Assembly: GCA_021464245.1 (NCBI GenBank)
Contig: JADCRB010000016.1
Location: forward strand, 11,962,647-12,026,646
Length of the DNA: 64,000 nt
Source of the DNA: Carallia brachiata
Lineage: Eukaryota; Streptophyta; Magnoliopsida; Malpighiales; Rhizophoraceae
Direction: 5' to 3'
The translations under genes were made by a program, and so were the position numbers. The first letter of the stretch is position 1. The number at the start of each line of letters is the position of its first letter. The notes under the pieces are model-generated. The model searched no databases and had not been told where the DNA came from. It worked only from the letters and a program-made list of their open reading frames with translations. Below are positions 5,772 to 52,902 of this stretch, in pieces.

Positions 5772-5891
5772 TCTATTTAATTAATATAAAAAAAATTTAA
5801 GAAAGTTTCCCTTTAATTCATGTTGCTATGTGACAAATAATTTAAATTTTTTATTTTACCTTTTTATTATTTCTTTTTTTTTTACACAATT

Positions 5892-12557: not shown

Positions 12558-13526
12558 ATGAAGGAAATCTACTTCATTCTGTCCTCTGTCCTTCTGGTTT
12601 TTATCTCTGCTGCTTCTGCCTTTGATCCTAGTCCTCTTCAGGACTTATGTGTAGCGATCAACAACATCAACAATGGCGGTATATGTTCCCGGCTGCATTA
12701 TTTTTGGCCTTTGAATGCATTAAATGTATCGCATGAACAAGAGCATCATCCAGATAGAAACAAATAATATAATTAATTGTCCTTTTTCCTTGTGACAGAA
12801 TTCGACCATCTCAAACATTTTTTCTATGCAGTGTTTGTGAATGGAAAGTTCTGCAAGGACCCGAAGCTAACAACAGCGGATGATTTCTTCTTTTCAGGGT
12901 TTGACATGCCAGGAAACACATCAAAACAAGTTGGGTCCATTGTCACTCTCTTGAATGTTGACAAAATTCCTGGGCTTAACACTCTAGGCATATCCATGGC
13001 CCGTCTCAAGTTTGCACCTTGTGGCCTAAATGCACCCCACACTCAGATCCAGACAGTCCTAGAAGGCACCCTTTGTGTAGGTTTCGTCACATTGAACCAG
13101 GATTATAATCGCTTCTTCACCAAAATCCTGAATGCAGGAGACGTTTTTGTATTTCCAATTGGTCTCATTCACTTCCAGTATAATGTCGGAAATACCAAAT
13201 CTGTTGCTATTGCTTCATTGAACTGCCAAAATCCGGGACTTATCCACATAGGAAATACAGTGTTCGGAGCCAAGCCACCAATTAATGTGGATGTTCTCGC
13301 TAAGGCTTTCCAGTTGGACAAAAATGTGGTGAACTACCTCCATAACCAGTTCTGGCAGAAGAACCATTATCGAGAATGTGCACGTGGCTACCATAAAGTA
13401 GCAGCTTGCTTGCCAATGTTGAGCATCATATTCTTTCATTCAGGTTATTGCCAATTTCTTTCATGTAATAAGGGACGCTTTGCTCCTCCGGAGGGTTTGT
13501 TTGAGTTGACATTGTTTATTTTTTAG
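12558..13526 (+). CDS. Degenerate germin-like protein 2 (GLP2), metal site broken, C-terminus extended
   Basis: Close paralogue of GLP3 with the same two-exon layout: 12558-12678 and 12832-13526, 271 residues against 223 for GLP3. Signal peptide and both cysteines are kept. Compared with GLP3 an in-frame 15-base deletion in box 1 removes the segment carrying the second metal His and the Glu; the text reads [11 protein letters not shown] in place of [16 protein letters not shown]. Box 2 His (GLIHFQYN) remains. At the GLP3 stop position GLP2 reads TAT CGA, so translation runs about 48 residues further to a TAG at 13524. A glycosylation sequon (NVT in GLP3) became IVT. The open frame is intact, but Mn-dependent activity is unlikely. 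It may be a young pseudogene or a non-enzymatic cupin. The start at 12558 is chosen by alignment with GLP3; an ATG nine bases upstream is in frame. Confidence 0.85.
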
Positions 13527-16070: not shown

Positions 16071-17074
16071 ATGAAAGGAATCCACTTCATTCTGGCCTCT
16101 GTCCTTTTGATTTTTATTTCTGCTGCTTCTGCCTCTGATCCTAGTCCTCTTCAGGACTTCTGTGTAGCTGTCAACAACAACAATGGTGGTATGTGCTCCT
16201 CCTGACTGCATTTTCTTCTAGAGAAAATGTTGATGTACTGAATTTTAGTGTTTTAATTAATATTTTAAATAAAAAAAGATTGATAATTTTTACAAAAATA
16301 TTGATAATATTTATAATAAAAAAATAAAATCTTATGCAGCAACTATCAATTTTATTGCATCTAAAATACTAGTCAAAACAAAAATATTTTACACATATAT
16401 TAGTGCTCTTCTTTCTAGCCCATGAATGCAGTACATTTATTGCAGAACACGAACATATTCTCCTTTTTTTTTTTTTTCTTCGTATTAGAATTTGATCCTA
16501 TCAAACATTTTTCTACGCAGTGTTTGTGAATGGACAGTTCTGCAAGGACCCGAAGTCAGCAACAGCGGATGATTTCTTCTTTTCAGGGTTTGACAGGCCA
16601 AGAAACACATCGAACCAAGTTGGGTCCAATGTCACTCTCTTGAATGTTGACAAAATTCCTGGGCTTAACACTCTTGGCATATCCATAGCTCGTCTCGAGT
16701 TTGCACCCGGTGGCCTAAATGCACCCCATACTCACCCTCGCGCCACGGAGATCCTAACAGTCCTGGAAGGCACCCTTTATGTGGGTTTCGTCACATCGAA
16801 CCAGGATGGTAATCGGTTCTTCACCAAAATCCTGAACGCAGGAGATGTTTTTGTGTTTCCAGTCGGTCTAATTCACTTCCAGTATAATGTCGGAAATACC
16901 AAAGCTGTAGCAATTGCTTCATTGAACAGCCAAAATCCAGGACTGATCCTCATAGGAAATACAGTGTTTGGAGCCAAGCCGCCAATTAAGGCTGATGTTC
17001 TCACTAAGGCTTTCCAGTTGGACAAAAATGTGGTGAACTATCTCGAAAACCTGTTCTGGGTGAACAACCATTAG
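16071..17074 (+). CDS. Germin-like protein 3 (GLP3), cupin
   Basis: Intact germin-like protein of 223 residues from exons 16071-16188 and 16521-17074. Signal peptide about residues 1-21 ([13 protein letters not shown] core), mature start near [10 protein letters not shown]. Metal ligands H109, H111 and E116 in PHTHPRATE and H158 in GLIHFQYN are all present, as are the two N-terminal cysteines and an NVT sequon. The intron (332 bp) is more than twice the length of the GLP2 intron because it carries a MITE. It has a TATA-like element about 80 bp upstream. Likely an apoplastic Mn cupin; enzymatic activity unknown. It is the intact partner of GLP2 in the duplication. Confidence 0.92.
16221..16413. 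mobile_element. MITE in GLP3 intron
   Basis: AT-rich block of about 190 bp with inverted-repeat structure: AATTTTAGTGTTTTAATTAATATT near the left end is the partial reverse complement of CTAAAATACTAGTCAAAACAAAA near the right end, with AATTGATA motifs inside. It is absent from the GLP2 intron. Related copies at about 17530-17715 and 58384-58632 share the ATAATAAAA core and the terminal AGTGCTCTT or ATGCTCTT. Superfamily not assigned; exact ends uncertain. Confidence 0.55.
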
Positions 17075-20947: not shown

Positions 20948-21829
20948 TTAAGTCAATGGCCAGAACTGTTTCTGAAGGTATTTGATAACGCCCGCGTCGA
21001 CTTGGAAGGCCTTTGTCAAAACGTCAGGATTGATGGGTGGCTTTGATCCAAAGACAGCGTTCGCAATTGTTATGACACCAGGATTCTGGCTACTCAATCC
21101 GGCAAACGCAACAGCATTGACCTTGCCTATATTTTGTTGAAAATGTATTTGTCCAATTGGGAACACAAAGACATCTCCAGGATTCAGGACTTTGGTGAAA
21201 AGGGTATTGTTGTTCTGGTTGGATGCTACAAATCCAACAAGGAGGGTGCCTTCTATGACCACTAGGATCTCGGTGCCGCGTGGGTGAGTGTGCGGCGGGT
21301 TCAGGCCACCGACTGCCCAGTCAAGACGAGCCAGAGAGACACCGAGGGTGTTGAGTCCCGGAAGTTGGTCCACGAACGCTGGTGTGACGGCAAAACCAAG
21401 TTTGCTTGCACCAGTGTTTCCAGGTTTGTTAAGCCCGTAGAAGAAGAAATCGTCAGCTGTAACTTGCTTTGGATCCTTGCAAAACTTTCCATTCACGAAC
21501 ACTGCAGGTATCAAAACAATTTGTCAATATCAAGCAATCATCAATACTACTCGTAAATTGTGTAATTTACTGTCCAACATGTGTCTAGTAAACAATATAT
21601 TGGATATTGAATAACTTCGTAGTAAGCACCAAATAGGATCATAAAATGTCAATTCATACTATTTAAATTAACGATTGTTAAGGAGCAATTAGAAGAAGAA
21701 AAACATACCCCCATCAGGCTCCTTGATGGCAACACAAAAATCTTGAAGAGGACTAGGGTCGTAGGCAGAGGCAAGTGAAGATGCCAGAGCCAAAAGAGCA
21801 AGAGTTGCAAGGAAACGAGCACCTTCCAT
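20948..21829 (-). CDS. Germin-like protein 4 (GLP4), cupin
   Basis: Intact germin-like protein on the opposite strand, 224 residues from exons 21829-21709 and 21501-20948. Signal peptide [18 protein letters not shown] with mature start near [10 protein letters not shown]. Metal ligands H111, H113 and E118 (PHTHPRGTE) and H160 (GQIHFQQN). The conserved intron site just before VFVNG is shared with the other three genes. It lacks the NVT/NIT sequon seen in GLP1 and GLP3 and diverges most from GLP2/3. A TATA box lies about 85 bp upstream of the start. Secreted apoplastic cupin; activity not predictable from sequence. Confidence 0.93.
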
Positions 21830-22681: not shown

Positions 22682-23659
22682 TGTAAAGCGTAAATTTCGA
22701 ATTAAAACAATTAAACTCGAAAATAAAAAAATAAATTACAAATAAAAATTTAAAATAAAAGAAATTTACGTGGGGTCGATCTCCGTAGATCCTCCGATTA
22801 GTGTTCCGTTTTTGACTCCGTCAAGGGCTGCACGAGCTTGATCTTTGACAGAAATAATTTCCACAGCTTTTTTCTTGAACTGGGTAGACTGAAACCGGAT
22901 CTGATTTGGACGTTTTGACTACGGTTAAGAACCGCAGAGACCTGATTTGAGCCGATCTGGCTTAATTTCACCGAGAGTCGAAGGGACTTGTTCTCGGATG
23001 AGCTGCCTGGATTTTGCTGAGGGCCGTTTGAGACTTAATCCCAGCTGGATTTGAAGTAATTTGATATTTTCAGATCTATATTCTCATAAATTCAGATCTA
23101 GAGCGATCGGAGAATATAAATCTAAAAATAACTTTAGAAATGGAAACATCAAATTTTTTGGGGTTTACTCCTGAAATATCTCTCAAAAAGGAGTTAGGAG
23201 AGTATACTGCAGAGTAAAAGCACGTAAGAAAAGGAGAAACTTTTTTGAGAGATTTTCAAAATTTTCTTTTTCTCTCAAATTCTCTGAATTTTTCTGTTTA
23301 CAGATTTGCTGAATATTTTTTTGAACTGGGGGGCAGGAGCCTATTTATAAGGCTTTCTTTCGTTGTGGGAAATGTAATTTCAATTTGATTTTGAAATTAA
23401 TTCCCACTCTTGTGCGCCAATTTTTCTGTGATTGGCTTCTTCCTTTCTCTGGAGATTTTGAGCCTATTTATAGGCTAGGAGAAGACACTGTACCACTAAC
23501 TTTTCGTTGAATTTTTTTTTTTTTGCCTAACTTTGATTTTTTTTTCTTTTTTTCAACTTCTAGAAGCTGACATTCTAGATTTTGATTTTTCTTTCTTTTT
23601 TTTTTTTCTCTTTTTTTTTTTCTTCTGCCTAACTTTGATTTTTTTTTTTGTCTTTTACA
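22682..23659 (-). repeat. 3' LTR of element 1
   Basis: Plus strand starts TGTAAAGCG and ends CTTTTACA. On the minus strand it has two TATAAATA boxes, at 23465-23472 and 23342-23349. 978 bp, against 787 bp for the other LTR; the difference lies in the U3 part. Confidence 0.8.
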
Positions 23660-23675
23660 AATGCCCCACTTCAAG
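23660..23675 (-). other. Polypurine tract, element 1
   Basis: TTGAAGTGGGGCATT on the minus strand directly before the LTR. Element 2 has the matching TTGAAGTGGGGGCGTC. Confidence 0.75.
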
Positions 23676-24606
23676 GGTCGGTAAGGAAGAACTTTACAGA
23701 CGTGATCCGCACCGAGTCTTTAAGTCCAGTTTGAAACTTGAGATGTCCTGACGAACATTGAATGTTGAAATCTTCTATCTCCGACTAACCCAACTGTTGT
23801 TGGATCGCAATGGAAACCGATACGATCTTGAAAAAGTTAGCACCCCAGCCAATATAAAAATTGACATTCTGGCTCCAAGTGCATTCGAGCTTCCATAGCT
23901 TGCAAAGGATTTTTTATATGTCTTAAAGTTTCAGAGCTCTGGTGAGGATGATCCGGTAGGCAAAGAACTTGAACATCCCCAAGAGGAAGGCCTAGAACTA
24001 CAGAACTTTAAGACTGGCACACAGAGAGATTGACTGTAGTGATGATTCCCAAGTCTGCTCGACGTAAGGAGAGTAGTTGGAACTTCCCTGTACGTCGCCG
24101 CATCCAAAGAAAGATTAGGATGATTGCAGCGTCTCATCCCTCTGTGGTAGATGTGAATTAAGGAGAGTAGTTGGAACTCCATGACACCGATGGCATTGGA
24201 GACTGAGTTTCGAGGGTTTTTAGAGATCCCTCAAGGAAGACTACTCCTTCTTTTCTTAGCTCGTGCGCCTCCAACTTCTTGATCAAAGAACTTCCTGGGA
24301 CAAGTGCTGAGACTAGCCATTTTCTTTTGAGAAGAAGAAGAACTGAGGGGTGAGTATTATGACTCGTACATGCAGGATATATATACATAACATAAAGAGA
24401 GATTTTTTTTTTTAAAAGTTGAAAAGGAGGTACGCAGAATCGAGTAGGGTCTTCCACGTCCCTTTCCCCCCATAAGAGACAAAAGAGGCAGCGGCTGATG
24501 CGGGTTACGAAAGTCGTTACTTTGTGTTGCAGAAGTCATTGCCGTGTGTTGCGAAAGTCGTTACCGTGTGCTGCCAAAGTCGATGCACCTTATCTTGTCG
24601 GCCGTC
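23676..24606 (-). other. 3' untranslated region of element 1
   Basis: About 0.9 kb between the WUS-like stop and the polypurine tract, with no coherent frame. It is alignable to 50919-51800 in element 2 (shared stretches such as CTTAATTCACAT and GGAAATTCCAAC-type blocks), so it is a genuine part of the element. Confidence 0.55.
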
Positions 24607-25217
24607 CTAGAGAGGCCCGAGACGTAGCTCCAAGTCAAGCTCGACCTCGTCTGGTGGGTCCATGATGTTGACGTCGCTTTCCGGCTGGTTGATGCTGCCG
24701 GAATATTCTGGAAAGAGAGGCAAAGTTTCGCCGGATGGCTCCTTTCTGCTAGAAAAAGTCCTCCTAGACTTAAGTACTTAGGAGGGATGAACATTTGACT
24801 GACTCCATAAGACCACCAGGACCAGTACGCATGCTCCCACAGGCTGCTGCTTTGATCGTTATAGCCTGAAGAGACCATTGCAGTGGTAGAACTCGGACCT
24901 GCTTCATTTGAGGGCGAAGTTGTACTGGTGGGATCTACCATCGGAACGACAGACTGTTCTTTGGAAAAATCAGCTCTCAGTGCTAGTTTTTCCTGCTTCT
25001 CCAATTTTTGGAACCAATAAAACACATTTTTTCCTTCGATTGCCCCGAGTGGGCGCAATCGTGAGACAAGTTGGTAAATCTGAGATGCATTAGGCATAAT
25101 ACCTCCATTGTTGTGGAAGACTTCCTCCAAAATTTGCAGTTGTGCCATGGTTGGTTGCCACCTTATGCGGGGTGACCTTTCTTCTCCCTTGTCTTGAACT
25201 TCTGCAACTGGTTCCAT
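24607..25217 (-). pseudogene. Captured WUSCHEL-clade homeobox ORF in element 1 (one frameshift)
   Basis: Frame opens at 25217. Residues 17-70 match a WOX homeodomain: RIRWQPTMAQLQILEE in helix 1, SQIYQLVSRLR in helix 2, and IEGKNVFYWFQ leading into helix 3, the hallmark of the modern WUS clade. The next residues are KLEKQEKL where WUS proteins have NHKARERQ, so the invariant Asn of helix 3 is lost. A Ser/Thr-rich middle follows. Near 24731-24738 one base is missing relative to the element 2 copy. In the shifted frame the text reads TLPLFPEY (24709-24726), a canonical WUS-box, then an acidic stretch and LDLELRLG before TAG at 24607, like the EAR-like end of WUS. Order and motifs together identify a WUSCHEL-type transcriptional regulator. 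It sits downstream of integrase and would need its own or read-through expression. Whether the frameshift is real or a sequencing error is open. Without the shift correction the frame runs on to 24561. Confidence 0.85.
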
Positions 25218-25349
25218 CTTTCCTGTGGCAGAGGAGCAAAGGTCTGGTGTGTGGTGAAGATCAGTTGAGACTGATGCTAAGTTTTAGACTCAAACCCTCC
25301 GTCGCTTTTATATTTTTGGGCCGTTCACAGTTTATACTTATGCGGGCCA

Positions 25350-25735
25350 GGAGTTGAATTGGATTCTGAACTTGGGTTCTGGACTGTGTTTGGAATTGGA
25401 AATTTTGGGTTTGGGCTTTGGATTGGATTTGGGTCGAGTGTTTGGGCTTCCAGACTTGGATTTTTGGACTTGGGTCGAGTGTTTGGGTTTTGGATTTGGA
25501 TTTTTAGATTTGGGTTGAGTGTTTGGGTTTTGAGTCTGGACTTAGTTTTCAAGCTTTTGAGTTGGGCTTTGAGTTTTCTGAATTGCGCTCAAGTGTTTGG
25601 GCTTGGATTTTCGGGTTAGGATTTTCGCTTGGACTTTCAGATCGGGACTTCCGAACTTTTTTTTTGATTTTTTCTATTTTTTTGATTTTTTTTTCTTTTT
25701 GTTTTTTTGTTTTTTTTTGTTTTTTTTAAACATAT
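25350..25735 (-). repeat. Low-complexity linker between integrase and WUS-like ORF
   Basis: Degenerate short tandem repeats of AAACCCAAACACTCGACCC type (minus strand) at about 25350-25640, then poly-T/A tracts at 25650-25730. Element 2 has the same arrangement at 49688-50125, so the spacer is an old component. Confidence 0.75.
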
Positions 25736-27185
25736 TTACACATAGTACTGTTTCAGAAATTTACCATTGATTGGGCCGATTCGGACGCCTTCTTGGTCTG
25801 ACAGCATGTAAGCGTTGTGAGTATAGGCCTCCTGCACTAGGTATGGCCCGTCCCATTTGGAAGTAAGCTTGTCACCAGGCCGATGCTTCATGTTGATGGC
25901 CGTCGTACTGCAAGAACAAGGTTTCCAACTTGAAAAGATCGAGGGCGGACCCTGCGGTTGAACGTGTTGGTGAGCCGGGCTTGGTAGCACTCAAGTTGCT
26001 GTTGTGCTTCGAGCCTCCTTTCATCGAGAGCTTCTAACTCATCCAGACGTAGGCGAGCATTCTCCTCCTGTGTGAGTCCTTCCAGAACAGCCATGCGCAG
26101 GGATGGAATCTGTGTTTCCAACGGCAGTATTGCTTCGACACCGTAGACAAGTGAGTATGGCATTGCCTGTGTTGGAGTCCGGTAAGTTGTACGATACGCC
26201 CATAATGCCTCCAGAATTCTGTCATGCCAATCTCTTTTGGATTTAGATACTACCTTCCGCAACAGGTTGCATAAGGTCTTGTTGAATGCTTCAGCCAAGC
26301 CATTTGCTGGGCATTGTACATGGATGACTTGTACTGCTTGAACTTGAACTTCTCGCAGAGCTTGTCGATCAAGCTGTTGTAGAATTGCTTGCCATTATCA
26401 GTGATGATGAATCGAGGGACTCCATAGCGATAGATCAGCTGAGTCCGGATGAAATTGGCAACATGCTCCTTCTTTACCTCTCTAAGTGGAATAGCTTCGG
26501 CCCATTTTGAGAAGTAGTCTGTTGCTGCGAGGATGTAAAGATGACCTAGGGATGACTTTGGCAAGGGCCCCACTAAGTCAAGACCCCAAGCTTCAAAGGG
26601 CCAGGATGAGACAGTTGGATGCAGTGGCTCCGGTGGTTGATGTATGTAATTGGCATGAAATTGACAAGCTTGACAAGTTTTAGCAAACTCAATGGAATCA
26701 CGTACCATGGTTGGCCAGTAGTATCCCATCCTTCTGAGTTGGAAGTGCAACTTAGGCCCTGATTGATGTCCGTCACAAACACCAGAACGTGCTTCAGCGA
26801 GAGCCTGTTTTGCCTCTTCATTGCCTAGGCAACGAAGTAAAACTCCATCAAAAGACCTTCGATACAGAGCATCCTTGAGATATATGAAGCGGGGAGCTCG
26901 TCGTTGAATTTCTGTCTTATGACGACGATCTTCAGGCAGCTTCCCGTGCTGTAGATAGTCAATGATTGGTTGGCGCCAATCTTCGTCGTCCGCGAGACGT
27001 ATAGATACAGCGTTGGCTGCTGTAGTTTCTTCATCATCCTTCTGTGGCACTATCCATTTCTGGCATACGGCAACAACTGTAGCCTGGATTTCTGACTTTG
27101 CAAGAGAGGTGGCCAGGTTAGCCAACGCGTCTGCCTGAGTTTTCTCGTCGAGGCACATGCTCCAAGGTGATGCTTTCAAATTCAT
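25736..27185 (-). pseudogene. Integrase of element 1 (frameshifted)
   Basis: Integrates retrotransposon cDNA in the nucleus. Recognised from an H-x(n)-H...CQACQ zinc-binding N-terminus, a core with WGLDLVGPLP (first Asp) and IITDNGKQF (second Asp), a NGLAEAFNKT segment holding the catalytic Glu, and a C-terminal region near SKWDGPYLV. The frame is interrupted near 26290 and near 25890, each by a single base compared with element 2. It ends with a stop at 25736. Upstream it is continuous with the archaeal-type RNase H region through another one-base slip near 27140. Confidence 0.88.
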
Positions 27186-28395
27186 CCATTAGCTGTCGAG
27201 CACGTTGATGGTAAGGCGCAAGTCCTCTTTCTTCATCATACAATCCTGTAAGTTGGTTGATGACGAGCTGGGAATCTCCATGGACTTCTATAGTTGGAAT
27301 CTTCATATCGACAGCCATTTGAAGACCAATGATCAAAGCCTGGTATTCAGCAACATTATTTGAACATAACTCACCGAGAATGATAGCATATGGTAGTATT
27401 TGTCGTTGAGGAGTGACAAACACTATGCCGGCACCAGCACCATCACGCCTTGCTGCACCATCAAAGAACATCGTCCATGGTGGCAGTGTCTCAATGTAAA
27501 AGACCTCTTCATCTGGAAGATCATCTGTGAACTCCCAATCTGACGGAACAGGGTGATCTGCAAGGAAGTCTGCTAGAGCTTGTCCTTTGACTGCTTTTTG
27601 AGGCACGTAGACAATGTCGTAGCTTTGTAGGATTACTGCCCACTTGGCAAGTCGTCCTGACAAGATTGGTCTAGATAAGATATATTTGACAGGATCAGCT
27701 CTGGCAATGAGACGTACCGTGTGAGCTTGCATGTAGTGCCTCAGCTTGTCAATGGCAAAGAACAGTGCTAGACATGTCTTTTCAATGGGCGAATAACTCA
27801 GCTCCGGACCGTTTAGTGTTCTGCTCAAGTAGTACAGGGCAACTTCCTTTCCCTGCTCGTTTTCCTGTGCAAGCAAGGCTCCCAAAGATCTTTCCTGCGC
27901 TGCAATGTAGAGAATCAACGACTTTCCTTGAATTGGAGCACCTAGGACCGGTGGATTGGAAAGGTACTTCTTTATGCTCTCAAAGGCTTTGCTGCAAGCT
28001 TCGTCCCACTCGAAGTTGACATCCTTCTTCATCAACCGATGGAAAGGTTGACATCTCCCAGCTAAATTGGAGATGAAACGGCGAATGTAGGCCAGCTTTC
28101 CTTGTAGACTTCGCAGCTCGTGCAGGTTTTTAGGTTCAGGCATCTTTTGAATTGCCTCAACCTTTGACTGATCAACTTCGATTCCACGATGGCGCACCAC
28201 GAACCCAAGAAACTTTCCTGATGTGACACCGAATGCGCACTTGAGAGGGTTCATTTTGAGCTGATGCCTCCGAAGTCTTTCGAACACTGTCTTGAGATCC
28301 TCGAGGTGGTCTTTGCGCTTCTTAGTCTTTACAACTAAGTCATCAACATAACATTCTACAATCTTGTGCAGCATGTCATCAAAAATTTTTTGCAT
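27118..28395 (-). CDS. RT C-terminus, RNase H and archaeal-type RNase H of element 1
   Basis: Long open stretch. It begins with the RT catalytic YVDD (ECYVDDLVVKTKK) and thumb, followed by the usual gypsy RNase H (FEWDEACSKAFE, LILYIAAQERSLGALL, YYLSRTL) and then by a second RNase H: MFFDGAARRDGAGAGIVF with its Asp, NNVAEYQALIIGL with Glu, and EVHGDSQLVINQL with Asp. That second, archaeal-like domain between pol RNase H and integrase is diagnostic of Tat-lineage Ty3/gypsy elements. Confidence 0.9.
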   Translation of the reverse strand: MQKIFDDMLHKIVECYVDDLVVKTKKRKDHLEDLKTVFERLRRHQLKMNPLKCAFGVTSGKFLGFVVRHRGIEVDQSKVEAIQKMPEPKNLHELRSLQGKLAYIRRFISNLAGRCQPFHRLMKKDVNFEWDEACSKAFESIKKYLSNPPVLGAPIQGKSLILYIAAQERSLGALLAQENEQGKEVALYYLSRTLNGPELSYSPIEKTCLALFFAIDKLRHYMQAHTVRLIARADPVKYILSRPILSGRLAKWAVILQSYDIVYVPQKAVKGQALADFLADHPVPSDWEFTDDLPDEEVFYIETLPPWTMFFDGAARRDGAGAGIVFVTPQRQILPYAIILGELCSNNVAEYQALIIGLQMAVDMKIPTIEVHGDSQLVINQLTGLYDEERGLAPYHQRARQLMDEFESITLEHVPRRENSGRRVG

Positions 28396-29473
28396 AGCAC
28401 GTTGATAAGTGGCGCCAGCATTTTTAATCCAAACGGCATAACTTTGTAGCAGTATATACCTTTTGGGGTGCGGAATGCTGTCAACTCCTCGTCTTCTGGT
28501 GCCATTCTGATTTGGTTATAGCCTGAAGAACCATCCATGAAGGACAATGCTTCGTGACCCGTTGTTGCATCGACTGTGATCTCCGTTATGGGCAACGGAA
28601 AGTCATCTTTCGGGCAGGCCTTGTTAAGATCTCGAAAATCAACACATACCCTCAACTGTCCATTCTTCTTTCTTACCGGGACAATGTTGGCAATCCACGT
28701 TGGGTAGGTGACCTCTCGGATGAAGCCAGCATTGATCAGCTTGTTCACCTCCTCCTCGATTTGTGGAATGAGTTCCGGGCGGAACCGTCGTTGTGGCTGC
28801 TTGACAGAACGAACACCCTTCTTTACTGCTAGACGATGCACCGCAATTTTGGGTCAAGTCCAGGCATTTCTTTGTAACTCCATGCGAACACGTCCCTGTA
28901 TTGACTTAATACCTGAACATATTCTTGCTCTTCTTCTGCAGTAAGTAAAGCACTTACAAATGTAGGTCGAGGATCTTCCGGAGAGCCAAGATTGACCTCC
29001 TTGAGTTCATCAACAGTTGCTTGGCCACCATCTTCAAGTTCCGGGGGAGCCTCCTTCACTTCACCATCTGATGAGTCGGACTCAGCCTCCTCGCTAATTG
29101 TGACATGAAATGTAGAGCCTCTGACTTCACCTTCTTTGTTTGACTGGATAAGCCTGTCTTGTTTGGTGGTGGTGGTGATGGCACGTGCATCAGCTGCTCG
29201 GCTTCGGCTCTTTAGCGTGATCCGCACAGGTGACTTCTCCTGATAGCCTAAGCCAGGTCGGGACTGTGATGTTTGAGAAGTAGCGCCATGTGTGGATGGC
29301 AGCGTACCCATTGTGCTCGGGTTTGAGAAGTCATAGCCCGCCTTTGCCAAAAGCTTGTATGCATTAGGATCAAATCCTTCATGTGTTCTTCTTTCTGGAA
29401 GTGAGCCGCCTTCGACTGCCCCCGTGTGTGGTTTGACGAAGCCTTTTAATGGTTTTGAGAAAAACCGGCTCAA
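28356..29473 (-). pseudogene. Protease-RT linker and RT N-terminal half of element 1
   Basis: RT fingers and palm are read in 28356-28841 (INAGFIREVTYPTWIANIV, VCVDFRDLNKACPKDDFPLP, SFMDGSSGYNQI), with a linker upstream (EEEQEYVQVLSQYRDVFAW at its end). The frame changes near 28835-28841 and again near 28410, where one A of a homopolymer is missing relative to element 2. Confidence 0.85.
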
Positions 29474-30190: not shown

Positions 30191-32190
30191 CACATAGCCT
30201 GATACATACAGCGGCCGATTGTGGGGTTTGGACCCCAGCAGGAGATCCTCATCTGAAAATGAGATAGCAGAGTAACATCCGACGTGATTTTGGTCCGCCT
30301 GTTGCTCCGCTGAGTTAGAATCATTGATGGCTGTGATTCAGCTGAGGTCTGGAGAGTATTGCTGACTTGATTTTGCCACACTTCTGTTGATTGCAAAGCT
30401 ATAAACAGCTGAGGGTTAGCGAGAAGGGTTTGGAGAGCTTCATATACCTTCTCCGTTGTCGACTTTTTGTTGTCGAGCGGCTCCTCCTTACGGTGTGTCA
30501 CTCTTCTGATGGTTTTGAAGTGATGGTGGTCTGGTTTGCGAGGTTATGCCTTCCTGGTCCAGAATGATTTTATTCTGGCTTTTGAGCTTCATGATTAGCT
30601 CCTTCAGGACGAAACACTTCTCGGTTGGATGACTTACTATCCGGTGATATTTGCAGAATCTCGGATCGCTGACTCGATCCTTTTCATTCGGCCGCTTGCA
30701 CTCTGGGAGTTCGATCAGCTTCGCCTCCAAGAGTTGTTCAAGAATGTCGGGGACGTCTGAGTCGGGGAATGGATACTGCTTTGCTCCAACTCTCGCAATG
30801 TCACCTTCCGCCTTTCCTGTTGTTTTGGCTGAGTTATTTGGGTCGGAGGATTTACCTTAGCTTTGGCGCCCACTTTTACTGGTGCGGCTTCAACAGTCAT
30901 CACTTCTTTCCTTTTCCGGAGCTGTTGGGTTTCTTAATCTCCCTTCTGCCCCCTTGCTGGTCCAACTGGATGGGAACCGTGCCTCCGGAAGTCTGGATGC
31001 TTATCTCCATATCATGTGCGCGGGTCGCCAGTTCTTCGAAAGTTCGGGGTTTGACACCCTGCAGGATGTATAACAGCTCCCAATGCATTCCCTGGATGCA
31101 CATCTACGGCAGAAGTCTCCGTCAGGCGATCTTTGCAGTCCAAGCTGAGGGCACGCCATCTGTTGATGTATTCGACAACGGGCTCTCCTTTCCTTTGTTT
31201 GGTGCTGGTAAGCTCCATCATACTTACCGTCCTTCGAGTGCTGAAAAATCTGTTGAGGAACTCTCGTTGTAGCTGTTCCCAACTGTCGATCGATTCTGGT
31301 TCAAGATTTATGAACCAGGTGAAAGCGGTCTCCCTGAGTGAACGAACAAACTGCTTCACCAAGAGATCTCCATAAGTCCCTGCGTTGTTGCAGGTTTCAA
31401 CGAAGTGGGCGATGTGCTGTTTGGGATCGCCTCGTCCGTCGAATTGTTGAAATTTGGGCGGCTGGTAGCCCAAGGCATGTTGAGACTTTCGATCCGTCTG
31501 GTGTACGGTTTGACGTACATCTGTGATCCTTGGAAGGATGTAGCTTGTTGCAGTCGGATCGTATTGGCTATCATTTCCTGCAATTGTTGAACAGATAGCG
31601 AAGCTACAGAATTTGAGGGTGGCAGCTGTGTAGAACTACCTGGTCGCTTTTCTGCAGGGAAGACGTCGGCTGGTGTGGCTTCTGGAGTGAAACCGGGTGG
31701 ATATGGTTGCTCCTCGCGGATTCGGGATCAACTTGGATCGGGGCTTTTCCTTTGAGAGCTGCGATCTGTTGATCTTTTTCCTCCACGACTCTGATCAGCT
31801 GCAAAATTTTGTTCTCCAATTCTGAAATCCTTTCTCTGTGCTGGTTGTGTTGGTCATCATGACGGCAACAGATGAGGCTCCGGAAAGACTGGGGAGAGAA
31901 ACTCTTCTGATTCTTCTGTGGATCGATGATTTTGTTGAGCAGGCTTCGTCGTGTTGCCCCCGACTTCGATCGGGGTGGGTGATCGACTCCTCCATGCGGC
32001 AAGAGAGTCAGGGGAGAGATCCTGTTGTGAGCTGTGGACTCTCCATTTCATTTTGTCGGGTTTGGACGGCAAGAAATTGTGTCCGTCCCCGGGTTTCTGG
32101 ACCTGCGTACCCAGGTAGGGTAGTTGATGCAGGCAATGGAGCCGTTGGCCTTCTTTTTGTGCAGCAGTGTAGACTCCTTTTCGGTGCCAT
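30190..32190 (-). pseudogene. gag of element 1, copy A (left of the gap)
   Basis: Starts MAPKRS... at 32190. It includes the Retrotrans_gag core at 31012-31473 (AHFVETCNNAGTYGDLLVKQF, WEQLQREFLNRFFSTRR, YINRWRAL) and a CCHC-like variant CKYHRIVSHPTEKC at about 30650. Several one- or two-base indels break it into pieces; the paired copy B differs at other homopolymers. Confidence 0.8.
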
Positions 32191-32221
32191 GGGATGTGCT
32201 GAACACCGGTAAAATTTTCAA

Positions 32222-32333
32222 TCTTTTTTACTTTTTACTTGACTTTGTTTTTACTTTTTATTTTTACTTTTTTACTTTTTTTTTTCACTTTTTACTTTTT
32301 ACTTTTTTTTTTACTTTTTTTTTTTTACTTTTT
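32222..32333. repeat. Pyrimidine-rich (CTTTTTA)n-like tract at the assembly gap
   Basis: Runs of T broken by AC, equivalent to 34200-34320 next to copy B. This tract ends at the unresolved base. Confidence 0.8.
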
Positions 32334-32334: not shown

Positions 32335-34177
32335 GAGTATTGCTGACTTGATTTTGCCACACTTCTGTTGATTGCAAAGCTATAAACAGCTGAGGGTTAG
32401 CGAGAAGGGTTTGGAGAGCTTCATATACCTTCTCCGTTGTCGACTTTTTGTTGTCGAGCGGCTCCTCCTTACGGTGTGTCACTCTTCTGATGGTTTTGAA
32501 GTGATGGTGGTCTGGTTTGCGAGTTATGCCTTCCTGGTCCAGAATGATTTTATTCTGGCTTTGAGCTTCATGATTAGCTCCTTCAGGACGAAACACTTCT
32601 CGGTTGGATGACTTACTATCCGGTGATATTTGCAGAATCTCGGATCGCTGACTCGATCCTTTTCATTCGGCCGCTTGCACTCTGGGAGTTCGATCAGCTT
32701 CGCCTCCAAGAGTTGTTCAAGAATGTCGGGGACGTCTGAGTCGGGGAATGGATACTGCTTTGCTCCAACTCTCGCAATGTCACCTTCCGCCTTTCCTGTT
32801 GTTTTGGCTGAGTTATTTGGGTCGGAGGATTTACCTTAGCTTTGGCGCCCACTTTTACTGGTGCGGCTTCAACAGTCATCACTTCTTTCCTTTTCCGGAG
32901 CTGTTGGGTTTCTTAATCTCCCTTCTGCCCCCTTGCTGGTCCAACTGGATGGGAACCGTGCCTCCGGAAGTCTGGATGCTTATCTCCATATCATGTGCGC
33001 GGGTCGCCAGTTCTTCGAAGTTCGGGGTTTGACACCCTGCAGGATGTATAACAGCTCCCAATGCATTCCCTGGATGCACATCTCCACGGCAGAAGTCTCC
33101 GTCAGGCGATCTTTGCAGTCCAAGCTGAGGGCACGCCATCTGTTGATGTATTCGACAACGGGCTCTCCTTTCCTTTGTTTGGTGCTGGTAAGCTCCATCA
33201 TACTTACCGTCCTTCGAGTGCTGAAAAATCTGTTGAGGAACTCTCGTTGTAGCTGTTCCCAACTGTCGATCGATTCTGGTTCAAGATTTATGAACCAGGT
33301 GAAAGCGGTCTCCCTGAGTGAACGAACAAACTGCTTCACCAAGAGATCTCCATAAGTCCCTGCGTTGTTGCAGGTTTCAACGAAGTGGGCGATGTGCTGT
33401 TTGGGATCGCCTCGTCCGTCGAATTGTTGAAATTTGGGCGGCTGGTAGCCCAGGGCATGTTGAGACTTTCGATCCGTCTGGTGTACGGTTTGACGTACAT
33501 CTGTGATCCTTGGAAGGATGTAGCTTGTTGCAGTCGGATCGTATTGGCTATCATTTCCTGCAATTGTTGAACAGATAGCGAAGCTACAGAATTTGAGGGT
33601 GGCAGCTGTGTAGAACTACCTGGTCGCTTTTCTGCAGGGAAGACGTCGGCTGGTGTGGCTTCTGGAGTGAAACCGGGTGGATATGGTTGCTCCTCGCGAA
33701 TTTCAGGATCAACTTGGATCGGGGCCTTTCCTTTGAGAGCGGCGATCTGTTGATCTTTTTCCTCCACGACTCTGATCAGCTGCAAAATTTTTTCTCCAAT
33801 TCTGAAATTCTTTCCTCTGTGCTGGTTGTGTTGGTCATCATGACGGCAACAGATGAGGCTCCGGGAAAGACTGGGGGAGAAACTCTTCTGATTCTTCTGT
33901 GTGTGAGTTGGATTTGTTGAGCAGGCTTCGTCGTGTTGCCCCCGACTTCGATCGGGGTGGGTGATCGACTCCTCCATGCGGCAAGAGAGTCAGGGGAGAG
34001 ATCCTGTTGTGCGAGCTGTGGACTCTCCATTTCGATATTTTGTCGGGTTTGGACGGCAAGAAATTGTGTCCGTCCCCGGGTTTCTGGACCTGCGTACCCA
34101 GGTAGGGTAGTTGATGTAGGCAGTGGAGCCGTTGCCTTCTTTTTTGTGGCAGCAGTTGTACTCCTTTTCGGTGCCAT
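32335..34177 (-). pseudogene. gag of element 1, copy B (right of the gap)
   Basis: Near-identical to 30353-32190, offset by about 1,980 bp. It begins at 34177 (MAPKRS) and holds the same gag core and the CKYHRIVSHPTEKC knuckle at about 32630, truncated at the N. It differs from copy A mainly by one-base indels in homopolymers. Confidence 0.85.
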
Positions 34178-34350
34178 TTGATGTGCTGAACACCTGTAAA
34201 TTTTTTTTTTTTACTTTTTACTTTTTTACTTTTTTTTTTTTTTACTTTTTTACTTTTTTTTTTACTTTTTTTTTTACTTTTTTTTTTTTCTCTCGGCTCC
34301 CCTTTTACCTCTTTTTTTTTTTTAAGGAACAAGAGATGGGAGGTGAAGAT

Positions 34351-34368
34351 GTCCCACCGAGCGTGCCA
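34351..34368 (-). other. Primer-binding-site-like sequence, element 1
   Basis: TGGCACGCTCGGTGGGAC on the minus strand, a few bases inside the 5' LTR. Element 2 has the counterpart TGGTATGCTTGGAGGGAC. The cognate tRNA is not assigned. Confidence 0.6.
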
Positions 34369-34374
34369 AAAATT

Positions 34375-35161
34375 TGTAAAGCGTAAATTTCGAGGTCTAA
34401 AATAATTAAACTCGAAAATACAAAAATAAATTACAAATAAAAATTGTAAATAAAAGAAAATTTACGTGGGGTCGATCTCCGTAGATCCTCCGATTAGTGT
34501 TCCTTTTTTGACTCCGTCAAGGGCTGCACGAGCTTGATCTTGACAGAAATAATTTCCACAACTTTTTCTTGAACTGGGTAGACTGAAACCGGATCTGATT
34601 TGGACGTTTTGACTACGGTTAAGAACCGCAGAGACCTGATCTGAGCCGATCTGGCTTAATTTCACCGAGGGTCGAAGGGACTTGTTCTCGGATGAGCTGC
34701 CTGGATTTTGCTGAGGGCCGTATGAGACTTAATCCCAGCCGGATTTGTAGTAATTTGATATTTTCAGATTTATATTCTCATAAATTCAGATCTAGGACGA
34801 TCGGAGAATATAAATCTAAAAATAACTTTGGAAATGGAAACAGCAAATTTTTTGGGCTTACCCCTGAAATATCTCTCAAAAAGGAGTTAGGAGAGTATAC
34901 TGCAGAGTAAAAGCACGTAAGAAAAGGAGAAATTTTTTTGAGAGATTTTCAAAATTTTCTTTTTCTCTCAAATTTTTTGAATTTTTCTGTTTACAGATTT
35001 GCTGAATGTGTTTTGAACTGAGAGGTAGGGGCCTATTTATAGGGTTCCTTTCCCATGTGAACATCACATGGGAAAGGAATCTTTTAATTCATTAATTTTT
35101 TTTTTTCAAAGTTGGAAGTCGGCAACGCCAATTTTGACTTTTTTTTTTTTTTTCATTTACA
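34375..35161 (-). repeat. 5' LTR of element 1
   Basis: Plus strand begins TGTAAAGCG and ends CATTTACA. One TATAAATA on the minus strand (35034-35041). 787 bp. Confidence 0.8.
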
Positions 35162-36937: not shown

Positions 36938-38758
36938 CAAACTGTACACCCGCCATCAATTTATAGACACCAAAATGCATCACACCTAACAAAATCTAAT
37001 AGACATGCAAACACATATATACCCTGCATTCAAACTCCAAACAAAAAAGCATCTCACCTGGCAGAACAAAAATGCTGCTCCCTCAATTACACACCATTAG
37101 AAAGCAATAGAAAAAAGCCTCTTCCCAAGGAAAAAACAAAAACAACAAAGGACGCCTCTTGGTTGAACAAAAGAGCTAACATTTCACAGCAAATCATACA
37201 ACCGTCCAATTGCTTTTCTCCATTTTGGCAATACTTGTTTAAGGATAGCCTCCACGAATATTGAGCCCTTTATTTCAACCGAGTGAGCAAGACAGTAGAA
37301 TAAGATTCTAAATGTAAAAAGCGAGTTTTTTCAGTTGTGATGGGATGCTGTTAGTTTAGTTGCTTTTTAACGTTTTAAAATTTTAGACCTTTTCCATGAA
37401 TGGTGAACAATTTTTTGGTATCCATATTGTTATGAGTCCAATTATATAATCCCGATAAAAGTGAGATGCAGAGCCGATACATTGCAATCAAGCCTTTTTT
37501 TTTTTTTTTTACAATCAGAAACTTCTTTTTTTTGCAATAAAAAACAGATGAGAAAACATTTTCATTTTTTGCTGCAAAAACAAAGTATTTACTTGCAAAA
37601 GAAAATGATTGTTATGATGTGTTGGCTCCGCTTCACTTTTTCCATGGATATATATATATTTCACATTATTAATGATCTTTGAGGCATGCAATTGCCAGGA
37701 ACTTTCTTCATTATGTTATCTTCACGCTGTAAAATATTCCATAAATATTAGTTGGCTAAGTAAGCATTGGCAAAAAAGTTCAACATTTACTCCATGTAAG
37801 ACTCGTTTAAAACTATACACTTAATGTCAGTTTTGGTGGCTATAATTGGGTTTCTCACTTTTACTTTGAGAATTTCATCTCTCATCAATATCCACGAAAG
37901 TTCACAAACAAAAAGCAATGTGAATCATGCTAATTAAGGAAGAAAATTTTCAACTAAACAGTTTCTTATTGTGCGACACGAGATATGGTCGGACCAGTGT
38001 AAAAGTTTTACTAAAAGTTTCTAATGTTTTTAAGCAAACTCTATCTGAATTCATCTTATAGTAAAGTATCATTAATATAAATGTGGTCTGTAGCATGACA
38101 GTTAGACTTAAGATTTAAATTGTGGAATGTTCAATTTTTTATCTTATGTCGAAAGAAGAAATGAGCTTTTTATGACATGAACGTGGTCAATTAAACGCAT
38201 TCTATGAGTGGACAGACATTGTAGTATTATCCTACTGGTTGCACTTTTGTGGCCTCATCTTTAACTGCAATAATGAATTGAAAATTAAAATTACGGAGTC
38301 AATAATCATAACAGTACAACGTATGAGCTCATGCGCATGGTGTGTCCTACCGTATCCACATAACTTCACCGAAAAGAAGCGGTAGCACAAAAATTGCAAG
38401 CATGTTCACATTCTTCTATAATCTACTTTCTACGGCATTAGTTTAGAATTAATCCACCAACAAAATTAAATAACCATCTTTGCGATCTTTGGAACAGACG
38501 TGAAAATCTCGACTCCATAGGCTCCATTTTATCAATAAAGAATGTTAGATTGGCTAGAAAATATTAAAAAGGAACAAAAAAATTAGATTAGCAAAAAAGG
38601 AACAAAAATATTAGATTAGCAAAAAAGTAATGTGTAATGGTTGATTATGTGTAACCTTCTGGTCTAAATCCAATTAATCTTTGAATTTGCTAGTCCAGAG
38701 CACGAAAAGATGAAAATCAAAGTAAATCAAACACCCAACACACGCACAAATGTACCTC
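36938..38758. other. Upstream part of peptide-gene unit 1
   Basis: Non-coding. Its first 850 bp match 40937-41545 (shared GACACCAAAATGCATCACAC, CAAAAATGCTGCTCCCT, ATTAGTTGGCTAAGT), and the part after 37786 matches upstream regions of the other two peptide genes (56220 onward and 61150 onward). So this is one copy of a duplicated unit. Confidence 0.7.
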
Positions 38759-38770
38759 AATATATATCCC
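38759..38770 (+). promoter_or_regulatory. TATA box of peptide gene 1
   Basis: AATATATATCCC, starting exactly 66 bp before the ATG. The same 12-mer sits 66 bp before the start of peptide genes 2 and 3. Confidence 0.7.
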
Positions 38771-38824
38771 AAGAGTCATCTCCCATGTAACATTGCACAC
38801 ACATTTTGCTCATTCGTCTCAAAA

Positions 38825-41887: not shown

Positions 41888-42976
41888 TGTAAACACAAAA
41901 ACCAAAAAGGGGAAGAAAAGTCAAAGTCAGCATGCATACACGTGAGAATGCCATACAATTTCCAGAGGCGGTCATGCAATTTCAATTTGGACGGCAACGA
42001 AAGTTTCAAACCAGGTGGCGTTCTGTATACTTTTTCCAACCTGGCTAGCGAGAGTAGGTGAAATAGGAAGATCTTCTGGCTTATAAATAGGCCAATCTAG
42101 GTGTTGCAGAAGTTATGATTCCAAGAAAAACTGACACTCAATAAAAAAGAGAAAGCAGCCAAATCCTTGAAAATACACCCAACTAATCACATACAAGTAT
42201 TCACATTCATTCAGCCAATCAAACAAAAACATTCACGTTCATGAAAATTTCCAAAGGGTAAAATTAAAATTCCATTTCTCACACACGGAAAGGGAGGCTA
42301 TAAATAGACTCTTTCCCCCCAGTTCAGAAAGAATCCAGCAAATCTGTACTCTAAAAATAGGGAAAGCCTAAGGAGAAAAAGAAAGAATAAAAAATCTTTC
42401 AAAAATTTTTCTCTTTTCCTACGTTTTCATACCCTGTAATATACTCTCTTAACTCCTTTAAGAAAGATATCTCAGATACAAAGTCCAAAAAAATTGTTGT
42501 ATATATTTTCAAGTATATTTTTAGTTTATACTCTCCGATCGTATTAGATCTACATCTATAAGAGTATAAATCTAAAATATTAAAATATTACAAATCTGGT
42601 TGAGATCAAATCTCATATGTCCCTCAACAAAATTTAGACAACTCACCCAAGAATAAACCCCATCGGCCCTCAATGACATCAAGTTAGATCGAGTTACATC
42701 AGGTCTCTGTGATTCTTCACAATAGTCCAAGTGTCTATATCAGATCTTGTTTCAGTCTTCAGCAGGATCTATACAGTTCGAGATAAAGCTGTGAAATTCA
42801 TTTCTATCAAGATCAAGCTCGTGCAGCCTTTGACGGAGTCACGAAACAATACTAATCGGAAGATTCACGAAGATCGACCCCACATAAATTTTATTTTATT
42901 TTAATTTTTTTATTTTTAATTTGTATTTGTATTTTCGAGTCTAACTATTGCAGGTTCGAAATTTACGCCCGTTACA
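41888..42976 (+). repeat. 5' LTR of element 2
   Basis: TGTAAACACAAA... to ...CCCGTTACA. TATAAATA occurs twice, at 42082-42089 and 42299-42306. Confidence 0.92.
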
Positions 42977-42982
42977 AATTTC

Positions 42983-43000
42983 TGGTATGCTTGGAGGGAC
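42983..43000 (+). other. Primer-binding-site-like sequence, element 2
   Basis: TGGTATGCTTGGAGGGAC just after the 5' LTR, homologous to the site in element 1. Confidence 0.6.
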
Positions 43001-48310: not shown

Positions 48311-49687
48311 CTTCTCTTACAAAGTCAGAAATCTAGGCTATAGTTGTTATCATATGCCAGAAGTGGATTGTACCGCAGGATCATGATGAAGAAAATACAG
48401 CAGCTAAGGCTGTATCCGTACGTCTCGCTTAAGGACAATGATTGGGACCAACCAATCATTGACTACCTGCGGCATAGGAACCTACCCAAAGATCGTTGTC
48501 AAAAGATAGAAATTCAACGACGAGCTCCTCGCTTCATATATCTCAAAGATGCTCTTCATCGAAGGGTTTTTTATGGAGTTTTACTACGCTGCCTGAGCAA
48601 TGAAGAGGGAAAATAAGCTCTAACTGAAGCACATTCTGGTGTTTGTGTCGGACATCAATTAGGACCTAAGTTGCACTTTCAGCTTACAAGAATATGATAC
48701 TACTAGCCAACCATGGTACGTGATGCAATACAGTTTGCTAAAACCTGTCAACCTTGTCAATTCCATGCAAATTACATTCATTAACTACCAGAGCTACTAC
48801 ATCAAACTATCTCATCCAGGCCCTTTGAAGCTTGGGGACTCAATTTAGTAGGGCCTTTGCAAAAGTCATCCTTGGGCCACCTTTATATTCTCGTAGCAAT
48901 AGACTACTTCTCGAAATGGGCCGAATCTATTCCACTTGCAGAATTAAAAAAGGAGTATGTTGTCAGCTTTATTCGGACTCATATGATCTATCGCTATGGA
49001 GTCCCTCAGTTCATCATCACTGATAATGGCAAACAATTTTACAACAGATTGATGGACAAACTCTACGAAAAGTTCAAATTCAAGCAGTACAAATCATCTA
49101 TGTACAATGCCCTGGTTAATGGCTTGGCTGAATCATTCAACAAGACCTTGTGCAATCTATTGCGGAAGGTAGTCTCTAAATCCAAAAGAGATTGGCATGA
49201 TAGAATTTTAGAGGCATTATGGGCGTATCGCACAACTTATCGGACTTCACTGCAAGTGACACCCTATGCATTTGTTTATGGTGTCGAAGCCATAGTATCT
49301 TTAGAGACGCAGATACATTCTCTTCGTATGGCTGTTTTAGAGGAGCTCACACAGGAAGAAAATGCACAACTATGTTTGGATAAGTTAGAAGCCCCCGATG
49401 AAAGGAAACTCGAAGCACAACAATAACCTGAATGCTACCAAGCCCGACTCGCCAACGCATTCAACTGTAGGGTTCGCCATCGATCATTTCAAGTTGGAGA
49501 CCTTGTTCTTGCAGTACGACGGCCCATCAACTTGAAGCATCGGCCTGGCGACAAGCTTACTTCCAAATGGAACAGGCCATACTTAGTGTATGAAGTCTAT
49601 ACCTACAACACTTACATGCTATCAGACCAAAAAGACGTTCGAATTGGCTCGATCAACGAAAAATTTTTGAAGCAGTATTATGTATAG
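48311..49687 (+). pseudogene. Integrase of element 2
   Basis: Best-preserved part: about 190 codons open from 48857 with HLYILVAIDYFSKWAES, ITDNGKQFYN and NGLAESFNKTLCNLLRK. The zinc-binding N-terminus before it is broken. The C-terminus ends at LKQYYV and a stop at 49685-49687, matching the end in element 1. Confidence 0.87.
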
Positions 49688-50125: not shown

Positions 50126-50259
50126 TATGAGTATAAACTACGAACAGCTCAACATCCAGTGCAACTCTTGACTCGCATGAGTACAAACTCTGAATGACCA
50201 AAAAATATAAAAGCGATGAAGGGTCTGAGTCTCTGCTTCAATCTCAACTTATCTCCACC

Positions 50260-50918
50260 GCATACCAAACCTTTGCTCCTCTGCAGCAGAAAAATAGAAC
50301 AATCTGCAGAACAACAGGTTAAGGAAGAAGAAATGTTACCCCGTGCTAGATGGCACACAACTTTGACACAACTACAAATTTTGGAGAAGTTTTTTCACAA
50401 CAATGGTGGTACTATTCTTAATACATCACAAATTCTCCAACTTGCCTCACGGTTGCGCCTGCTAAAGGTGGTCAAAGGAAAAAATGTATATTTAGAAGAA
50501 TTAGAGGAACAGGGAGAGAACGACACTGACATATGCTATTTCCAAAACACAGTCTGCCGTTCTCATAGTATATCTCACTGGTACAGCTTTGCCCTCAAAT
50601 GAAACATGTCTGAGTTCTACTGTTATAATGATCCTTCCAGGATATTTCGATCAAAGTCATAGCCTGTGCGAGTATGCATACTGGTCCTGGTGGTCTTACG
50701 GAGTCAGCTAAGGGTTCATCACTCACTGGTACTTAAGTCTAGGAAGAATTTTTCTAGTTGGAAGAAGTCATTCTAGCGATATTTTACCTCCCTTTCCAGA
50801 ATATTACGGTAGCATCAACCAGTCGGAAGGCTCTAGTGACGTCAACATTATCGGCCCACCAGAAGAGGCTAGGATTGACTTGGGCCTGCGCTTCAGGCCC
50901 TACCAGGATGGCCGATAA
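50260..50918 (+). pseudogene. Captured WUSCHEL-like ORF in element 2, degenerate
   Basis: Homeodomain start is readable as RARWHTTLTQLQILEKFFHN and SQILQLASRLRLL, then GKNVY; the FYWFQ part of helix 3 is missing and the text continues LEELEEQ, matching the altered tail of element 1. Several stops follow (for example TGA near 50600). Further on, in the frame that is continuous here, DILPPFPEYYGS (WUS-box remnant at 50781-50798) and DLGLRF precede a stop at 50916-50918. It confirms that the WUS-like region was present in the common ancestor of both elements, and it shows the reading frame that element 1 lost by one base. Confidence 0.82.
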
Positions 50919-51813: not shown

Positions 51814-52902
51814 TGTAAACACAAAATCTAGAAAGGGGAAGAAAAGTCAAAGTCAGCATGCATACACGTGGGAATGCCATACAATTTCCAAAGGCAGACA
51901 TACAATTTCAATTTGGACGGCAACGAAAGTTTCAAACTAGGCAGTGTTCTGCATACTTTTTCCAATATGGCTGGCGAGAGTAGGTAAAATAGGAAGATCT
52001 TTTGGCCTATAAATGATCCAAGTGTTGCAGAAGCTATGATTCCCAAAAAAACTGACACCCAATAAAAAAGATAAATGAGCTAAATCCTTAACAATACACC
52101 TAGCCAATCACACACAAGCATTCGCATTCATCCAGCCAGTCAAATAAAAGCATTGATGTTCATGAAAATTTCCAAAGGGCCAAATTGAATTCCATATTTC
52201 ACACACGGAAAGGGATGCTATAAATAGTCCCTTTTCCCTCAGTTTAGAAAGAATTCAGCAAATCTGTAATCTAAAAATAGGGAAAGCCTAAGGAGAAAAG
52301 GAAAGAATAAAAAATCTTTCAAAAATTTTTCTCTTTTCCCTACATTTTCATACCCTTTAGTATACTCTTTTAACTCCTTTGAGAGAGATATCTCAGATAT
52401 AAAGTCCAAAAAAATTATTGTATCTATTTCCAAGTATATTTTTTGTTTGTACTATTCGATCGTATCAGATCTAGATTTGTGAGGGTATAAATTTAAAATA
52501 TCAAAATATTATAAATCTGGCTGAGATAAAGTCTTATACAGCCCTCAGTAAAGTTCAGGCAACTCACCCGAGAACAAGTTCCCTCGGCCCTCAGTGAAAT
52601 CAAGTTAGATCGAGTCAGATCAGATCTCTCTGATTCTTCACTACAGTCCAAGCGTCTACATCAGATCCAGTTTCAGTCTTCAGTATGATCTATGCAGCTT
52701 AAGATAGAGCTGTAGAATTCATTTCTGTCAAGATCAAGCTTGTGCAGTATTTGACGGAGTCACGAAAAAAATACTACTAATCGGAGGATCCACGAAAATC
52801 GATCATACGTAAATTTTATTTTATTTTAAATTTTTTTATTTATAATTTGTATTTGTATTTTTAAATCTAATTATTGTAGGCTCGAAATTTACGCCCATTA
52901 CA
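51814..52902 (+). repeat. 3' LTR of element 2
   Basis: TGTAAACACAAA... to ...CCCATTACA, 1,089 bp. The upstream TATA copy is mutated to TATAAATG (52009-52016); the downstream TATAAATA (52219-52226) is intact. Confidence 0.92.

Follow-up and report, generated by a model that had tools for sequence, protein, structure and literature searches.

Host-gene capture by LTR elements is already known, and a few described plant systems come close to the arrangement reported here. A 2023 meeting report (PMC10714607) describes how LTR retrotransposons multiplied WOX genes in two Vigna species, V. marina and V. riukiuensis, with more than 1000 WOX copies in the latter species, mostly located between identical LTRs with target-site duplications. 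Orchid Ty3/gypsy elements of the Tat lineage, of which a dual RNase H is a feature, carry an ORF for an AlkB-type m6A demethylase with demethylase activity in vitro, and the survey published in the same article recorded 15 uncommon domains, including a B3 DNA-binding domain, while the string "homeo" is absent from its main text (PMC9289625). The accessory ORFs (aORFs) of plant LTR elements, as described in the available text of PMC7264820, are antisense and lack similar genes outside transposable elements; among them, aORF-3R is an extra ORF between pol and the 3' LTR, and the same source describes maize Bs1, which transduced host genes in sense orientation.

Within the 64-kb stretch of Carallia brachiata DNA analysed here (the window), two LTR elements carry a gene derived from WUSCHEL (WUS). 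They resemble the Vigna elements in holding a WOX-family gene between LTRs and in target-site duplication, but the Vigna LTRs are mostly identical and the copies exceed 1000 in V. riukiuensis, in a description that leaves element lineage, WOX clade, gene position and homeodomain state aside (PMC10714607). The present elements are Tat-type, with a gene of the WUS subclade, an altered helix and old, broken copies; the two systems were compared by description only and may or may not be related. The captured gene differs from that of the orchid AlkB Tat elements (PMC9289625). The position between pol and the 3' LTR recalls aORF-3R and the sense orientation recalls Bs1; unlike the antisense aORFs without relatives outside transposable elements, the gene here is WUS-derived and lies on the pol strand in both elements (PMC7264820). 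Compared with Arabidopsis WUSCHEL (PDB 6ry3, 6ryd), it shares an extra helix 1 residue, TLPLFP and LELxL-type motifs, but Asn90, Lys92 and Arg94 are replaced, the ORF is broken and the gene is retroelement-borne. The first element comprises the following features.

22682 to ~35161, minus strand: element 1, with LTR pair, gag piece, pol, integrase and WUS-derived gene
22682..23659, minus strand: 3' LTR, 94.3% identical over 683 columns to 34375-35052, with end motifs
23663..23674, minus strand: polypurine tract, TTGAAGTGGGGC, adjoining the 3' LTR, its position matching 51800-51811 of element 2
25217-24607, minus strand: WUS-derived gene, ATG at 25217 and final stop TAG at 24607
24607..24729, minus strand: C-terminal piece, TLPLFP from 24726 and LELRL from 24633, in a frame that differs from that of the homeodomain
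24741..25217, minus strand: piece with ATG and homeodomain, 159 codons counted, homeodomain at residues ~17-80
25300..25317, minus strand: TATAAAAG motif, ~90 bases 5' of the ATG, common to both elements
26253..27188, minus strand: integrase, H2C2 zinc binding and rve
27121..28515, minus strand: end of reverse transcriptase (RT), RNase H and second RNase H (RVT_3); PF00078, PF17917 and PF13456 in that order
31015..31635, minus strand: gag piece, Retrotrans_gag
34351..34369, minus strand: primer-binding-site candidate
34375..35161, minus strand: 5' LTR, of which 35053-35161 has no match to the 3' LTR

The carrier proposed in an earlier sequence-only reading, a Tat-lineage Ty3/gypsy element, was borne out by the gene order, since RT, RNase H and a second, RVT_3-type RNase H (27121-28515) followed by integrase (26253-27188) fit this lineage; the gene also lies where that reading had placed it, between the integrase and the 3' LTR (22682-23659). 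LTRs with TG..CA ends and polypurine tracts occur in both elements, and a TGG-containing site follows the 5' LTR in each as a candidate primer binding site; in Ogre, a member of the Tat lineage, the primer-binding tRNA is tRNA-Arg. RT homologs numbered 3078, and among the 120 listed the named ones were nearly all from plants, the best being Cucumis melo at 74%, while a search of IMG/VR with pol returned zero matches. In both elements pol is split across several frames, indicating that both are defective.

Element 1 shows several irregularities. The outer (U3) parts of its LTRs, 35053-35161 and 23361-23659, are mismatched, and a target-site duplication was sought at its flanks with none clear; inter-element recombination, deletion or misassembly may account for both. 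Because these unlike outer parts were force-aligned, the resulting LTR distance of 0.165 is inflated and was set aside, and the BLAST value of 94.3% over 683 columns was used. On the gag side, a stretch of ~1.96 kb is doubled in tandem (30354-32312 and 32335-34287, 97.1% identical), and the sole N of the window, at 32334, sits at the junction; the doubling may be an assembly artefact in which two unmerged contig ends or alleles were joined. The WUS-derived gene, the integrase and the 3' LTR of element 1 all lie on the same side of this N.

The second element, on the opposite strand, has the following features.

41888-52902, plus strand: element 2, second copy with the WUS-derived gene
41888..42976, plus strand: 5' LTR, flank ATGTC, 86.2% identical over 1099 columns to its partner LTR
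48785..49423, plus strand: integrase core (rve)
50198..50602, plus strand: homeodomain remnant, frame broken; PF00046 at 22.7 bits, marginally below the cut-off of 22.9
50778..50900, plus strand: decayed WUS-box/EAR piece (ILPPFP, LGLRF); tblastn 61% over 41 columns, 4.3e-11
51800-51811, plus strand: polypurine tract
51814..52902, plus strand: 3' LTR, flank ATATC

The flanks ATGTC and ATATC form a 5-base target-site duplication matching at four of five positions. LTR identity is higher within each element (94% and 86%) than between elements (73.6-75.8% in three matches, the fourth pair lying inside a longer 79% match), which marks each pair as the product of its own insertion. The RT, RNase H and integrase pieces and the WUS-derived gene follow in identical order and orientation in both elements, with the gene in sense and an identity of 77.2% (566/733) across the gene stretch. 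A second, independently inserted copy with the gene at the same internal site implies that the gene is part of the element. It is very improbable that the homeobox sequence is instead a chromosomal WUS-like pseudogene hit by an element or relic and not the element's own; for these two copies that explanation is refuted by the shared internal site in elements of differing flanks and orientation, and by LTR pairs that are more alike within elements than between them. The sequence-only reading had named absence from other copies as evidence against capture, and what was found is the reverse, element 2 carrying the gene at the same place; its further claim of multiple copies stands to the extent of two independent copies within the 64-kb window, a count that covers the window only.

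The identity of the encoded domain is well documented. The homeodomain of element 1 was recognised by the Pfam Homeobox profile PF00046 (E=4.9e-7, 29.9 bits, cut-off 22.9), as the sequence-only reading of a WOX homeodomain anticipated, and a PDB sequence search with the ORF returned just two proteins at E<=1, WUSCHEL as the best (1.1e-15) and STENOFOLIA (1.3e-13). The homeodomain shares 30 of 62 residues with that of Arabidopsis WUSCHEL, and the remnant in element 2 aligns to WUSCHEL free of gaps (E 1.7e-4). In structures predicted without any alignment, the homeodomain reached a pLDDT of ~90, within a whole-model mean of 67 (44-67 across five models), and all 11 PDB matches obtained by Foldseek with the predicted model at E<=0.001 were WUS (9) or STENOFOLIA (2) chains. 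A six-frame scan of the window finds the hexapeptide TLPLFP once, at 24726 on the minus strand; LELRL lies at 24633 on the same strand, and the looser pattern L.LRL has four matches in the window. A chance likeness to a homeodomain is of negligible probability and is refuted by the WUSCHEL match, the 11 of 11 Foldseek matches and the presence of TLPLFP and LELRL downstream.

Database searches for related proteins gave a mixed outcome. With the whole ORF, none of 442 candidates reached E<=0.001; with residues 38-164 only, 22 of 34 candidates matched, all of them with PF00046. The whole-ORF null is misleading, because the database contains plant proteins and residues 38-164 did find matches. An IMG/VR search with the ORF gave three pattern matches and zero confirmed ones, the NCBIfam search gave no match, and no Pfam family matched the adjoining ORFs at 24161-24535 (minus strand) and 25284-25619 (plus strand). 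Among the matches to residues 38-164 are two short WUS-like proteins of 159-161 aa, P0127 and P0128 (the latter from Ipomoea triloba), which have the extra residue, a TLxLFP box and LELSL together with an odd helix, NQRNRER.

One extra residue where helix 1 ends (Tyr54 in WUS) is specific to WUS within the WOX family (PMC7203112). Both elements have it, element 1 as His and not Tyr, as do 7 of 24 host rows, each of them WUS or WUS-like (Ipomoea included); the other 17 lack it. Of 22 host proteins, three have TLPLFP with its proline and five have L[ED]LxL within the last 60 residues, in each case proteins of the WUS-like length type; among host rows, both motifs are confined to those with the extra residue. 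The assignment to WUS is made on the extra residue, TLPLFP and the C-terminal L[ED]LxL. In the homeodomain tree that had been suggested as a check, the element row sits on an end branch of 5.09, too long for the row to be placed; the free tree sets it by WOX1/6 rows with support 60/11. This tree was built without WOX2, WOX5 or members of the intermediate and ancient clades, and its rows carry subfamily labels partly taken from sources and partly assigned in this analysis. Topology tests rejected none of the groupings (p-AU 0.161 for WUS, 0.584 for WOX3 and 0.286 for WOX4).

The gene is no longer intact. In element 1 the span 25217-24607 measures 611 bases, which is not divisible by three, and the open stretch of the homeodomain frame, 25283 to 24564, reads neither TLPLFP nor LELRL; as these motifs lie in another frame, the ORF is broken. 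Thus the three WUS-clade features on which the sequence-only reading was based are all present in the right order, although the WUS-box and EAR are encoded in a frame other than that of the homeodomain and not in one ORF with it, and the intact gene that it envisaged gives way to a frameshift in element 1 and several disruptions in element 2. Both present copies are broken relics. Upstream of the ATG, the two elements share 83% identity over 25218-25330, and the TATAAAAG motif is a possible internal promoter, which would permit a separate transcript of the WUS-derived gene. Short tandem repeats of ~40 and ~50 bases lie directly upstream of the gene in both elements (25404-25532 and 50093-50189).

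A further change concerns the recognition helix. The base readers of WUS are R38, Q89, N90 and R94, of which N90, the adenine reader, is the most relevant and crucial for binding (PMC7203112). The homeodomain had been read as a normal one, yet Asn90, Lys92 and Arg94 are replaced. In element 1, WFQNHKARER has become WFQKLEKQEK, so that R38 and Q89 are retained along with N90K, H91L, K92E and R94Q. In element 2, six bases are deleted in the helix region, which reads E at 89 and E-L-E-E-Q at 90-94. N90 and R94 are intact in 22 of 22 host proteins. Of the 57 positions of the PF00046 profile, the match in element 1 gets no further than 49, while in all five host proteins that were scanned it runs through to the last. 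Position 101, through which WUS makes a dimer contact, carries Ala in element 1 and Leu in the Silene and Dioscorea rows of the alignment. The L-E-x-Q at 91-94 common to both copies suggests that the helix change preceded the element split; together with the shared WUS-only residue, the common altered helix places both capture and helix change most likely before the two insertions. For these two copies, the evidence shows with high probability that a Ty3/gypsy lineage of the Tat type acquired WUSCHEL from a host, and that their common ancestor already carried it in sense as an accessory gene between integrase and 3' LTR.

An altered helix could in principle bind DNA with a new specificity, the product being a re-specified transcription factor that regulates its own LTR or host genes. 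The predicted homeodomain fold with its long third helix (pLDDT ~90) and the retention of R38 and Q89 in element 1 would agree with such a role; however, N90 has been replaced by Lys in one copy and by Glu in the second, and the recognition helix has gained acidic residues, which makes this possibility unlikely.

Selection on the WUS-derived gene was compared with that on pol. Between the copies, RT/RNase H (dN/dS 0.26; shifted frames 0.56 and 0.92) and integrase (0.29; shifted frames 1.2 and 0.97) are clearly constrained, and their codon-position spread is significant (p ~2e-5 and ~3e-5, respectively). For the WUS-derived gene, pooled dN/dS is 0.62 (bootstrap 0.40-0.975), and codon-position bias was absent (p=0.70 for the whole gene, 0.17 for the homeodomain and 0.34 for the WUS-box piece). 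Taken by itself, the piece in the homeodomain frame has a ratio of 0.65, which is no better than its shifted frames (0.48 and 0.74), so that this comparison is uninformative. Divided into parts, with small numbers and cuts chosen after the domain borders were seen, the homeodomain codons give 0.36 (control run 0.345; shifted frames 0.61 and 0.96), the block after the linker 0.40 and the WUS-box piece 0.51, and the recognition-helix end (1.3, 14 codons) and the linker (2.2, 32 codons) are unconstrained. Element 1 has zero stops in the 199 codons counted. With neutral divergence set to 0.15-0.18 substitutions per site, roughly one half of the inter-element distance (synonymous 0.41, LTR 0.36-0.47), simulation predicts 4.1-5.0 stops with a probability of 0.005-0.013 of finding none, which rises to 0.04-0.06 at 0.10 substitutions per site. 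As this test was run on the less decayed of the two copies, with an assumed divergence and from the present letters, it lends moderate support to the view that the reading frame was kept until element 1 inserted. Since the WUS-box and EAR have decayed in element 2, retention of these motifs depends on one copy, and selection on the gene appears only partly supported.

These results bear directly on whether the captured gene or gene fragment was a passive passenger that hitch-hiked and decayed without function for the element. A pooled dN/dS not below the shifted frames, the missing codon-position bias, the breakage of both copies and a divergence (77.2% identity) equal to that of non-coding spacers (76% and 80%) are as expected of a passenger. 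On the other hand, such a gene would hardly be stop-free over 199 codons in element 1, which still encodes the ATG, the homeodomain and both C-terminal motifs, nor would its homeodomain piece look more constrained than its shifted frames. The passenger explanation is considered about as likely as the alternative of an accessory WUS mimic, and the two are given nearly equal weight.

The WUS-box and EAR are short C-terminal motifs of WUS that bind TOPLESS-type corepressors, and the shoot stem cells governed by WUS lead to the germline. Against this background, the best explanation, advanced tentatively and with less than even confidence, is an accessory mimic of WUS with corepressor motifs kept and poor DNA reading, which would interfere with WUS. 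In the ancestral element with the captured gene, the homeodomain had most likely already lost some of the residues that contact DNA bases in WUS, and the WUS-box and EAR are still encoded in element 1. The mimic would engage corepressors, WUS itself or both but read DNA poorly; with corepressor motifs but no normal DNA reading, it would compete with WUS or act as a corepressor sink. Interference with WUS would act in shoot stem cells, the source of the germline. WUS takes part in excluding RNA virus from stem cells (PMC10589665). That a long-lived Tat lineage encodes a WUS-made accessory protein, devoid of DNA reading but with its repression motifs retained, which blocks WUS-dependent stem-cell defence and opens a path to the germline as a counter-defence factor built from its own target, is an improbable extension of the mimic explanation.

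The statement in the sequence-only reading that no comparable report was known needs qualification, as WOX genes between LTRs are described in Vigna and their occurrence inside LTR elements is not wholly new (PMC10714607). Beyond that report, no other account of a WOX gene in an LTR element was recognised in the literature covered, which left bioRxiv and most subscription papers outside its scope, and the available text of the 2026 review PMC13317346 contains no mention of WUS, WOX, homeobox, Vigna, Tat or Gypsy; PMC4901127 and PMC8124563 offered nothing relevant. The apparently new aspects are that the element is Tat-type, that the gene belongs to the WUS subclade and sits between integrase and 3' LTR, and that its recognition helix is altered. 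A captured stem-cell master regulator that outlived the split of two element lineages with its DNA-reading surface altered would represent a natural experiment on possible retroelement action in the meristem, the tissue through which a retroelement must pass for inheritance. Retroelement copies can also swell WOX gene numbers taken from genome annotation, as indicated by the Vigna report (PMC10714607).

The remainder of the window holds several minor features. Four related Cupin_1 ORFs are clustered beside element 1, at 9901-10473, 12777-13526 and 16496-17074 on the plus strand and 20948-21523 on the minus strand; these are presumably germin-like. A 519-codon ORF at 2077-3636 (minus strand) gives a weak match to the U11-48K-like CHHC zinc finger, marginally below cut-off. 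A tandem repeat at 5891-7091 consists of about three copies of a unit of ~390-400 bases that are 91-94% alike, and a dispersed repeat is present in three copies (38669-38929, 57335-57595 and 61691-61951) with 67-84% identity to the reference copy.
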